From Bacteroidales bacterium (GTDB taxonomy: Bacteria > Bacteroidota > Bacteroidia > Bacteroidales > GCA-2748055): a DNA stretch of 64,000 bases. This document shows, piece after piece, positions 2,840-64,000 of the stretch. Every line of letters begins with the position of its first letter. Within the stretch, counting starts at the first letter, position 1. The translations under genes were made by a program, and so were the position numbers. The stretch lies in the NCBI GenBank assembly GCA_021738565.1, contig JAIPBT010000004.1:61482-125481 (forward strand), in the 5' to 3' direction. The notes beneath the pieces were generated by a model, which did no database searches, was not told the origin of the DNA, and saw only the letters and a program-made list of their open reading frames with translations.

Positions 2840-4083
2840 CCCCTTACCTGTCCGTTTCCATATATAATATACTTAATGGTGGTCAATTCATTCAATCCCA
2901 TGGGGCCCCTAGCATGAAGCTTTTGTGTGCTTATACCGATCTCTGCTCCATAACCGAATTCAAATCCGTCTGTAAACCTTGTGGAAGCATTAACATAAAC
3001 AGCAGCAGCATCTATCATTTCAAGAAAATACTGCGCATTGCCGTAATCAGAAGTAATAATAGACTCTGAATGGGAAGATCCGTAGGTATTGATATGGGAA
3101 ACCGCTTCCTGTACCGAACCGGTTACCTTTGCACTAATGATCATGTCCAGGTACTCCGTTCCCCAGTCATCATCTGTGGCTGGTTTTGCATTTTTCAATA
3201 ATGAACAGACCCTATCATCACCGCGTATTTCTACACCAGCATCAACAAGTGCTTTTCCAATGAGAGGAATCGCCTCGTCTGCAATCGCCGAATGAACCAG
3301 CAGACTTTCTGCCGCATTGCATACTCCCGGCCTGTGGGTCTTTGAATTCACCACTATTTTCGTTGCCATTTCAAGGTCGGCAGAGGCATCTACAAAGAGG
3401 TGACAATTCCCCACACCGGTTTCAATAACCGGTACCGTGCTGTTATTTACCACTGCCTGGATAAGACCGGCTCCCCCTCTTGGTATAAGAATATCAAGGT
3501 ATTCGTTCAGCTTCATCAAGGCTACAGAACTTGCCCTGGTTGTATCTGTAATCAGCTGGATCATATCGGGATTATTTCCCATGGAATCAATTACATTTCT
3601 GAAAACAGTAACAATAGCCATGTTGGAATGAAACGCTTCCTTGCCGCCCCTCAGCACACAAACATTCCCGGTTTTAATGCACAACCCGCCAACATCTGCT
3701 GTTACATTGGGTCTGGATTCATATATTACACCGACCACACCCAGTGGAACACGTTTTTTCCCGATCATCAAACCATTCGGTCTTTTATTCATTTCAATGA
3801 CCTGTCCGACCGGGTCATCCAGGGCAGCAACCTGATTCAGGCCTTCAGCAATCCCTTCTATCCTCTTGTTATTGAGCGTAAGGCGATCCACAATGGCTCC
3901 TTCCAGTCCAATTTTGTCTGCATTTTTCAGGTCCGTTTTGTTGGCTTCAAGAATTGATGCCGATTGCTTTATCAATTCCTGTGCAACCTGTTCCAGGATA
4001 TTATTCTTGGCTATTGTATCCAGATGTGCCAATTCATACGATGCTTCTTTTGCTCTTTTCCCAATTTCAATTACTTCCTTCAT
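2836..4083 (-). CDS. proA: Gamma-glutamyl phosphate reductase (glutamate-5-semialdehyde dehydrogenase)
   Basis: Second step of proline synthesis, reducing glutamyl-5-phosphate with NADPH. It is an aldehyde-dehydrogenase-fold protein of the usual length (415 aa), with the conserved VIYESRPNVTADV segment near residues 118-130 and the catalytic cysteine region HRPGVCNAAESLL near 255. It follows proB by 11 bases and is the last gene of the minus-strand arginine/proline run. Its 3' end overlaps carA by 4 bases, so no room is left for separate terminators. Confidence 0.96.
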   Translation of the reverse strand: MKEVIEIGKRAKEASYELAHLDTIAKNNILEQVAQELIKQSASILEANKTDLKNADKIGLEGAIVDRLTLNNKRIEGIAEGLNQVAALDDPVGQVIEMNKRPNGLMIGKKRVPLGVVGVIYESRPNVTADVGGLCIKTGNVCVLRGGKEAFHSNMAIVTVFRNVIDSMGNNPDMIQLITDTTRASSVALMKLNEYLDILIPRGGAGLIQAVVNNSTVPVIETGVGNCHLFVDASADLEMATKIVVNSKTHRPGVCNAAESLLVHSAIADEAIPLIGKALVDAGVEIRGDDRVCSLLKNAKPATDDDWGTEYLDMIISAKVTGSVQEAVSHINTYGSSHSESIITSDYGNAQYFLEMIDAAAVYVNASTRFTDGFEFGYGAEIGISTQKLHARGPMGLNELTTIKYIIYGNGQVRG

Positions 4084-20194: not shown

Positions 20195-21190
20195 CTATTC
20201 AGGATCATATGCCCATTTCAGATAAACCGATCCCCATGTAAACCCACCTCCAAAAGCTGCAAATATGACATTGTCTCCCCTGTTAATTTGCTTTTCATAT
20301 TCCCAGAGGCACAATGGAATTGTTGCTGCCGTGGTATTTCCATACTTCTGAATATTTATCATCACCTGGCCCTTCCGGATTCCCATCCTTCTTGCCACTG
20401 CTTCAATGATCCTCATATTGGCCTGGTGGGGCACCAACCATTTCAGTTCGTCCGGTTTAATTTTATTTCTTTTCATGATCTCGACAGAAACATCAGCCAT
20501 TTTTGAAACTGCCACTTTAAAAACAGCCTGACCTTCCTGAAAAATAAAATGCTCACGGTTATCTACAGTTTCGTGTGAAGCTGGTTTCAGGGACCCACCG
20601 GCTTTCATATGCAGGTTATTGTACCCGCTGCCATCTACTTCAAGTATACTGTCAATGATCCCAAAACCGTCTTCAACAGGTTCAATAAGCACCGCCCCTG
20701 CACCATCACCAAATAGGGGACATGTAGTTCGGTCGGTATAGTCTGTAATGGCACTCATCATATCCGCACCCACAACGATAACTTTTTTACTTGCTCCGCT
20801 CCTGACAAAACCTGCAGCTGTTTCAAGTGCAAAGAGGAATCCGGAACATGCAGCTGCAAGATCAAAACCCCAGGCATTTTTTAATCCCGCTTTGTGGCAA
20901 ATTAAATTGGATACTGACGGAAATTGCATATCCGGAGTAACGGTTGCAACAATAACCAATTCAACATCAGCAGGACTGGTGTTTGTTTTTTCAAGAAGTC
21001 CTTTTACTGCTTCCGTTCCCATATCTGATGTTGCCTTGCCCCCCTTAAGTATCCGGCGCTCTTTGATCCCGATACGCTGCATTATCCATTCATCCGTCGT
21101 ATCAACAAGGGTACTAAGCTCATCATTCGTAAGCCTGTATTCCGGAACCCAGCCATGGACTCCTGTTATTCCAGCCGCAGTCAAACTCAT
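20195..21190 (-). CDS. fabH: Beta-ketoacyl-ACP synthase III
   Basis: Starts fatty acid synthesis by condensing an acyl-CoA with malonyl-ACP. The catalytic triad is recognisable: Cys in [10 protein letters not shown] near 113, His in VPHQANMRI near 252 and Asn in [10 protein letters not shown] near 282. Length 331 aa is normal. It overlaps plsX by 4 bases (the pair plsX-fabH is a common lipid operon). Confidence 0.96.
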
Positions 21191-22131
21191 TTGTTCAGTG
21201 ATTCTTTAATGTTGTCAATCAATCCTGTATCTATTACATTGAAGGTTTGGATGATCATGTTCATAATTGCCTTTTCATTTGATATCCCGTGACCAATGAC
21301 CATTGGAGATTGAATACCCAAAACAGGTGTTCCTCCAAAATTTTCAAAATTAAACATTTCAAAATAACCATTGCATTGATTCCTGGTAGAAATCAAATTA
21401 TAGAAAGCTTCTGCCAGTTTCAGGACAATGTTACCAACAAACCCGTCACATACTATAACATCAGCTTTATTATCTGTAAATAAGGTGTTTGGTTCAATGT
21501 TGCCTGAAAAGTTAAAATCATTGTTCCGGTACATTAGCCGGAATGTGCTTTTAGCAACGAGATTTCCTTTTTCCTCTTCCTCACCAATATTCAACAATGA
21601 TACCCTTGGGTTTTCAATATTGTAAAGCAACCTGGATATGATGCTGCCAAGTATTCCGTATTGGTATAAAACATCTGGCCTTGCATCGGGATTCAGGCCA
21701 ACATCCAGTATGACAGCATCCCCACCCTTGATTCCTGGAATTTTTGCTGAAATGGCAGGTCGGATCACCCCTGGTATGGGTGTAATTATTTGCATGGCTC
21801 CTACAAGCATTGCTCCGGTATTGCCTGCACTGCAAAAACCATCAATATTTTTGTTTTTAAGCATTTTCTGACCAAGAAAAATGCTTGAATCCGGCATGTT
21901 GTTGAAAGCCTTGATCGGATGATCCCCCATTCCAAGGTACTGGTCGGTATGAATGATCTCAAATAAACTGATATCCAGATCATTTTTACCTGCATAAGTA
22001 AGGATAATGTCTTTGTCGCCAAAAAATACGATATCAGTTTCTGCGGGAAGTTCCTTCTTTGCAAGCAGGCTACCTTCAATAGCTGCACCCGGGGAGTAAT
22101 CCCCGCCCATGATGTCAATTCCAATGCGCAT
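21187..22131 (-). CDS. plsX: Phosphate acyltransferase
   Basis: Converts acyl-ACP to acyl-phosphate for phospholipid synthesis. It opens with [18 protein letters not shown], the PlsX start motif, and has [14 protein letters not shown] near 100 and [13 protein letters not shown] near 240. 314 aa is normal. It follows rpmF by 29 bases and is coupled to fabH. Confidence 0.96.
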
Positions 22132-22360: not shown

Positions 22361-22891
22361 TTAATTTTTATCAAATACTTTTTTTAATTCATCCCAACGT
22401 GGATCCGTATATTTTACTTCTTCTTTCAACAAATGATTCTTCAGCTTTTTCAACATGTCAGGATTGCATCCAGAGGACCCGTCCTGCAGATCCGAATGTA
22501 CTTTTTTTATCGGAACTGAGAGCACCAGGTATTCATAAAAGATTTGGGAAACATCAAAATGATTGTTATCCCTCGGAACCATTAACACATCGTCATCCAT
22601 CTCTTTCTCCACATCACCATATTTCAGGAACATGGTTTGGTCAACAGAGATCGGATGTTCGAAGACCTCCAGACACCTGTCACATTCCAGATTCAAAAAA
22701 CCCTCCAGGTGAACATCAAGTGTTAAGCCATCCGTTCGTTTCGATACTTCCATCAAAACCCGGATCTCCCCACCTTCCCAATAACTGCTCTCGTAAAACC
22801 GAAAGAACGAATCTCCCAATGAAAATTCAAACGTTTCAGTCTCCTTCTTCAGTTCGGAAAAACGAACTACATATTCTTCACTTCGCTTCAC
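22361..22891 (-). CDS. YceD/DUF177 family protein
   Basis: A 176-residue protein of the YceD (DUF177) family, which in bacteria and plastids is encoded beside rpmF and linked to 23S rRNA maturation or ribosome assembly. The family hallmark is the CxxC in [16 protein letters not shown] near residue 77, followed by the acidic [11 protein letters not shown] segment. It is 5 bases before rpmF. Confidence 0.9.
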
Positions 22892-22975: not shown

Positions 22976-23134
22976 TAATTAGTGCCTGTCAATAAAGTGC
23001 AGTGGCTGGATCATAATGTTCGTTTGCAAGGCTTGCGAAGTTGGGAAATGCGGAGTCCCGATATATTATCGGGATTAGCAATTTTACCGACGAGCGTAAC
23101 GATGATATCGGACATTATGGACAGACACTAATTA
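22976..23134. repeat. MITE-like long inverted-repeat element
   Basis: About 159 bp bounded by TAATTAGTGCCTGTC on the left and GACAGACACTAATTA on the right, inverted copies with one mismatch. Inside, matching segments continue (CATAATGTTCG against CGGACATTATG) toward a central perfect hairpin TCCCGATATATTATCGGGA (23056-23074). It has no ORF. A 24-base core (23052-23075) occurs again, inverted, at 63914-63937. These properties fit a non-autonomous palindromic intergenic repeat or a structured RNA. It fills most of the DUF177-response regulator gap. Confidence 0.7.
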
Positions 23135-23171: not shown

Positions 23172-23549
23172 TTAATACAATACTTCATCGATCATTTGAA
23201 TGAGTGTATCAATAAAGTAATCGTCTTTTGTTAGAAAACGCACTGCTCCAATTTCCAGGGATTTTCTTAAAAGTTCTTCTGTTCCGTAAGCAGTAAGCAT
23301 GATAACAGGGAGGTCTGATTTGATACTTTTGATCTTTTCAAGGGTCTGCAAACCATTCATTTTAGAATCGTCATCAGTAGACAAATTATGATCAAGTACA
23401 ATCAGATCAGGATTCAGGTCAATCGAATTCAAACAATCTTCTCCCGATTCAAATGCCTTTACATCATATTGCTGACGGCTCTGGAAAGTATACTCCAGCA
23501 GATTTATTATCATTTTGTCATCGTCAACAAAGAATATCAGTTTGCTCAT
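23172..23549 (-). CDS. Stand-alone response-regulator receiver protein
   Basis: A 125-residue single receiver domain. The acidic pocket is FVDDDK (about 8-10), the phospho-acceptor Asp is in LIVLDHNL near 55, the switch Thr is in MLTAYG near 87 and the conserved Lys in LTKDD near 109. There is no output domain. No kinase is adjacent; it may act as a phosphorelay intermediate or on a partner protein. It is bounded by the palindromic repeat downstream and a long intergenic region upstream. Confidence 0.9.
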   Translation of the reverse strand: MSKLIFFVDDDKMIINLLEYTFQSRQQYDVKAFESGEDCLNSIDLNPDLIVLDHNLSTDDDSKMNGLQTLEKIKSIKSDLPVIMLTAYGTEELLRKSLEIGAVRFLTKDDYFIDTLIQMIDEVLY

Positions 23550-63829: not shown

Positions 63830-63990
63830 ATATTAAGCCCTGACCATGTGACTATTAATTTGTGCTTGCAAGAAAACGCCAATAGCTGCGTTATGCTCGA
63901 CTTCAAAACAGTCATCCCGATAATATATCGGGACTCCTGTTTTTCATCTGTCATTGCTTATTTTAATTTGTCAGATGGAGCTCGCCATGA
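63830..63990. repeat. Second copy of the palindromic intergenic repeat family
   Basis: AAAACAG-TCA-TCCCGATA and its partner TATCGGGA-CTC-CTGTTTT form a hairpin at 63905-63944. The 24 bases at 63914-63937 are the exact reverse complement of the core of the element at 23.0 kb, and a CGAG-TAACG-like segment follows in both. The flanks are not conserved. The boundaries given are approximate, and the element may run past the window edge. No gene is seen in 63768-64000. Confidence 0.55.
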
Positions 63991-64000
63991 CAGCTTTTCA

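Follow-up and report, generated by a model that had tools for sequence, protein, structure and literature searches.

Closest described systems

It is well known that bacteria harbour small MITEs with hairpins, TA ends and target duplications (PMC2229807), and attributing a MITE to a co-resident insertion sequence by means of its ends and its duplication is already practised (PMC6382973). For example, the RUP element of Streptococcus pneumoniae is a non-coding repeat of ~107 bp with terminal repeats common to the resident insertion sequence IS630-Spn1 and a TA-containing target (PMC2229807). The element described here is like RUP in these respects, although the transposase of the RUP partner belongs to the IS630 family and the likeness is drawn from its description. 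Another example is MITEAba12, attributed to the co-resident DDE insertion sequence ISAba12 via its ends and the length of its duplication (PMC6382973); unlike the present element, it measures 113 bp, has different ends and is flanked by 9-bp duplications without a sequence trend (PMC6382973). The Correia/NEMIS elements are likewise MITEs of ~107–155 bp with TA ends and long hairpins, for which RNA-level effects via RNase III have been proposed (PMC2229807), the likeness again being drawn from their description. Finally, ISRm17, an ISNCY-like element of Sinorhizobium meliloti, has a transposase homologous to the enzymes considered below over 93–95% of its length (33–37% identity), and its ends (GTGCCCRTCCATAAAC) and its target (TA-NNN-TA) resemble those of the family studied here. 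On the other hand, ISRm17 is autonomous and alphaproteobacterial, and its duplicated TAGACTA gives a 7-bp spacing instead of 6. No paper linking MITEs to ISNCY in Bacteroidota was found in the literature searched. The MITE family described here is new, its kind of mobile DNA being familiar, with novelty judged from the literature. Its significance is that an abundant, unannotated class of Bacteroidales repeats would be tied to a specific transposase group (ISNCY), and that it presents two testable oddities, namely that the structure of a MITE covaries and that its copies are biased towards stop codons.

Architecture of the element

In the window (the whole stretch of 64,000 nucleotides that was analysed), positions 22976–23134 are laid out as TAATTA, 147 bp and TAATTA, the interval singled out in an earlier note on this DNA being the element together with both target duplications. 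The MITE itself (family I; 147 bp excluding the duplications) occupies 22982–23128 on the plus strand, starts with GTGCCTGTCAATAAAGT and ends with ACATTATGGACAGACAC; the duplicated TAATTA lies at 22976–22981 on the left (AATT in the 4-bp reading) and at 23129–23134 on the right. The left terminal inverted repeat, GTGCCTGTCAATAAAGT (22982–22998, plus strand), is of an end type also found on an insertion sequence of contig C32, and is followed by an internal copy resembling it, AGTGGCTGGATCATAATGTTCG (23001–23022, plus strand), which forms the base of a long hairpin with the right end as its partner. The tip of this hairpin is a 24-mer (23052–23075, plus strand) made of GGAG and the stem CCCGATA/TATCGGG, and the right terminal inverted repeat (23109–23128, minus strand) reads outwards as GTGTCTGTCCATAATGTCCG. 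In family I the tip stem is flanked by GA on either side; in the window copy the 3' GA has mutated to TA. The earlier note had described terminal inverted repeats, matching inner arms, a perfect central hairpin and the lack of an ORF, and all four descriptions held on measurement: the terminal arms (22976–22998 and 23112–23134) are 87% complementary over 23 nt, the inner arms (23012–23022 and 23109–23119) 91% and the central hairpin (TCCCGATA/TATCGGGA) 100%, and there is no ORF of at least 80 aa inside the element. When folded as RNA, the element reaches −67.7 kcal/mol (z = −7.0), and none of 200 shuffled sequences was equally stable. According to Pfam, the MITE lies between a response-regulator gene (23172–23549, minus strand, PF00072) and yceD (22361–22891, minus strand, PF02620), with a plsX-like gene (21187–22131, PF02504) farther downstream.

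Copies in the genome and their target duplications

The genome to which the window belongs (G000) is a draft of 3.98 Mb in 83 contigs, 98.5% complete. At E < 1e-12 the element has at least 43 matches in it, most of them 81–93% identical, and the 24-mer occurs at least 38 times exactly and at least 52 times with up to three mismatches, against zero occurrences of the reversed pattern. Several contigs (C5, C9, C48, C50, C73, C74 and C19, as well as the one that ends with the window at 63862–64000) terminate inside or beside a MITE copy. The copy counts are thus lower bounds, and these repeats account for several contig breaks in the assembly. The end sequence TTAGTGTCTGTC, allowing at most one mismatch, was counted at least 165 times in the genome versus 25 for its reversed control, so that more subfamilies must exist than the one in hand. 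The hexamers flanking the copies follow the pattern TANNTA on both sides (examples are TATGGA, TATGTA, TAACTA, TAGTTA and TTTTTA), and the two middle bases agree between the sides in 42 of 55 elements, when 9.5 would be expected and 19 was the maximum in 1000 shuffles. Since the outer T and A never clearly deviate on both sides together, the duplication can be read either as the 6-bp TANNTA or as the 4-bp ANNT. Some copies directly adjoin one another with one target in common. A further subfamily with the same ends has an interior starting AAAATCTTAAACCGCAGTATAC and lacks the tip framed by GA/GA (L061:3122-3266, L066:1262-1407, L094 and L212). There are also minimal derivatives in which both ends are kept and only 29–37 bp separate perfect duplications (L063 near 2050, L076 near 1360 and L077 near 1593).

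A probable partner insertion sequence of the ISNCY type

An insertion sequence with matching ends is present in the same genome at positions 3123–4760 of contig C32 (L082:506-2143). It is 1638 bp long, is bounded by GAGTCTGTCAATAGAGT and GAGTTTGTCTATAAAGTC, and is flanked by TAATTA at both ends. The ORF that it interrupts continues in its reading frame, as followed by eye, once the element and one duplication are removed. Its intact ORF of 443 aa scores 372.6 bits on the NCBIfam model NF033593 ("ISNCY family transposase"; cut-off 325) and 38.6 bits on PF01609 (cut-off 23), and stays far under the cut-offs of IS5_1, IS1182 and IS982. The motifs DST, DGGY and E..S.IKR were recognised in it by eye only. 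With a transposase above the curated cut-off, and with inverted repeats and a target duplication around the gene, the element has the sequence features of an ISNCY insertion sequence. It was found as a single copy in the draft genome, so that one intact partner stands against at least 43 MITEs. The match between the ends of the MITE and those of the partner spans ~17–20 bp and is imperfect. Of the three DDE_Tnp_1 genes of this genome, only the one on C32 lies between such ends; those on C71 (an IS4-family transposase) and C56 were rejected as partners for lying outside them, and an IS630/DDE_3 partner, suggested by the TA ends, was discarded when PF13358 gave no match in the genome. Solo ends were also noted near ordinary genes on C57, C10, C79 and C1, where a transposase was looked for and none was found. 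In other genomes (other Bacteroidota and one bin labelled Ignavibacteria), relatives of the C32 transposase sit between ends of the TGTCYATAAA type. A copy of the partner transposase in a congener (G003:C28:335703-337030) is 96–98% identical, is split over two frames and has apparently decayed.

The window element is very probably a MITE that depends for its movement on a DDE transposase of the ISNCY type acting in trans. It is short, non-coding and multi-copy, has terminal inverted repeats and a target duplication, occurs in filled and empty sites, and has a relative that is autonomous and shares its ends and target, as a MITE should. The transposase of the C32 insertion sequence is the likely mover because ends and target agree, as in the published cases of RUP and MITEAba12. 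In the proposed mechanism, an NF033593-type enzyme would bind the two ends of ~17–20 bp (GTGYYTGTCMATAAAGT and GTGTCTGTCCATAATGTCC), mobilise the MITE and join it to TANNTA sites, with 6 bp (or the inner 4) being duplicated. This enzyme would be that of the C32 partner or a close relative since lost, and its chemistry would presumably be like that of other DDE transposons. The interior of the MITE is a long hairpin built on the internal end copy and not a deleted piece of the partner. Several proposals of the earlier note are borne out by these results. It had predicted many copies per genome from two, and the at least 43 elements and 38 exact 24-mers exceed the two copies that would have spoken against it; the alignment of flanks that it advised gave TAATTA here and TANNTA across the family; and the transposase with matching ends that it proposed to look for is that of C32. 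Its suggestion of a transposable relic agrees with the copies, the duplications, the matching-end transposon of the same genome and the empty sites in relatives.

Empty sites and distribution among relatives

In the congeners G002 and G003 the conserved flanks of the window element can be aligned, and the interval between them is ~140 bp shorter and devoid of the element, these flanks being too diverged for the exact empty target to be read. Elements of the same architecture are present in scattered genomes of the order. Among 101 genomes, matches to the MITE were obtained in 19 and to the transposase in 10, both together only in G000, G003 and G076; the co-occurrence of MITE and transposase across genomes is weak. 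Repeats drop out of draft assemblies, however, and a MITE can persist after its enzyme has disappeared.

Insertions at stop codons

All 25 copies examined for gene context lie outside long ORFs. The relation of the insertions to stop codons was analysed in 34 elements with duplications, from which the element and one duplication were removed by a script and the ORFs were read again; the ORF calling was crude (at least 100 aa, no start-codon model). At 11 of these 34 elements, the target contains the stop codon of 12 ORF ends, and the ORF length is unchanged in the empty site; this stop is the first codon of the hexamer in four of the 12 and TA plus the next base in the other eight. By comparison, a stop codon coincides with 2 of 60 comparable TANNTA sites taken from these flanks. 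There is one further stop-codon case, in which the length of the ORF shifts by 6 nt. This stop-codon bias of the MITE copies is a lead, and its simplest reading is that insertions at stop codons survive as the protein stays unchanged, because the TA of the target and the first base of the element, G, together make TAG. Copies of family I at stop codons include L003, L004, L005, L020, L024, L061, L069 and L072. The orientation of the MITEs relative to neighbouring genes gave no clear bias with these crude ORF calls, right-pointing tandem pairs being split 6 versus 6 and the other classes being too few.

Covariation of the hairpin

Comparison of 28 elements, taken from 13 genomes, shows that the main pairing partner of the right end is the internal end copy and not the left terminus. 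Pairing holds in 93.6% of the cells of the 19 basal pairs, against 82.3% after shuffling and 35–43% after sliding; 51 cells are changed on both sides versus 14.3 in shuffles, and the covariation score was reached in none of 500 shuffles. The tip stem is swapped wholesale between genomes (GTTTAC/GTAAAT, GTATAC/GTATAT, GTGTAC/GTACAT, GTTGAC/GTCAAT and GTCCCGAT/ATCGGGAT), while the flanking GA...GA is kept in most. Compensatory changes inside the genome of the window alone are weak, because chimeric arms exist there, and the set compared between genomes is much stronger. The covariation may reflect selection for structure or homogenisation of the arms.

In the first of these two cases, the hairpin could be a structured regulatory RNA, an option named in the earlier note, or a single-stranded DNA element under selection, merely carried by the transposon ends, with a role in 3'-end protection, as an RNase III site or as a transposase cofactor. 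Such a role, which is doubtful and would be compatible with the MITE reading, draws on the strong covariation of the hairpin base, on the persistence of GA/GA around replaced tips, on the combination of one tip-plus-arm module with two different end types (see below) and on the enrichment of copies on native stop codons. Against it, template switching or recombination between subfamilies homogenises arms and would make them covary even if the hairpin had no function; chimeras whose arms were swapped and are mispaired do survive, the window copy being one of them (left CGTTTGC, right GATATCG); and nothing exceeded the gathering score in Rfam, where the only hit was isrJ at 17.4 bits versus 37. 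It is unlikely that a conserved and structurally constrained hairpin module, having covarying arms and a replaceable tip between tandem GA/GA and placed on the ends of two divergent ISNCY clades, acts at the level of RNA or single-stranded DNA. If it did, it might for example protect the 3' end of the mRNAs whose stop codons the MITE occupies, or aid transposition.

REP or BIME palindromes carry the tag GTAG/CGTC. A reading of the element as such a palindrome, spread by a RAYT (Y1) transposase and acting as an mRNA 3'-end hairpin or terminator, would fit its intergenic position, its hairpin, its high copy number and its frequent location at gene ends. This reading, which the earlier note had raised as a REP-like structure, is highly improbable, and it fails on the size of 147 bp, on the terminal inverted repeats and on the duplicated TANNTA target, as well as on the ends held in common with a DDE insertion sequence. 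REPs are described as palindromes of 20–40 bp (PMC3733652). A derivative of the IS200/IS605 type, without terminal inverted repeats or target duplication, was discarded too, the window family having both.

The 24-mer at 63.9 kb and a second family

The 24-mer of the hairpin tip recurs exactly at 63914–63937 on the minus strand, with 0.00 occurrences expected in shuffles. The inverted match at 63.9 kb reported in the earlier note is thus exact; what did not stand is that it marks a second copy. The site belongs to another MITE family (family II), whose ends differ; this element occupies 63862–64000 on the plus strand with the left end GTGCTTGCAAGAAAACG and is incomplete, the contig ending where the window ends. 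That both sites hold the same element, one of them truncated, has almost no probability, for the two sequences, which have the 24-mer in common, differ everywhere except in the tip and in a portion of one arm, and family II has its own ends (GTGCTTGCAAGAAAACG and, read outwards on the right, GTGTCAGAAAGAAAAC), its own TANNTA duplications (TAACTA/TAACTA and TAGTTA/TAGTTA, for example) and dozens of loci, with compact copies of ~153–170 bp. No autonomous partner of family II was found in its own draft genome, where the only match was the family I transposase. In the relatives G012, G015 and G072, and also in G063 and G009, ends of the family II type enclose transposases from a distant branch of NF033593, two of the first three scoring 404.6 and 383.7 bits. 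In a tree of 13 proteins, one branch with a support of 100/100 separates the two end types, ISRm17 being a long branch of unsure placement.

Homology between the two families extends from the hairpin tip across the right arm, though not to their ends; comparison of family II with a family I element of G077 gave 66 identical positions out of 88. The 24-mer common to both would most simply be explained by recombination or by shared descent of the hairpin module. Chimeras of the two families were observed on contigs C61, C72 and C29. Elements in which a family I half is joined to a family II end were noted at L065:1384-1537, L058 near 1421-1524 and L074 at ~2870-3082, the first of these loci being flanked by the nearly matching duplications TAATTT/TAATTA.
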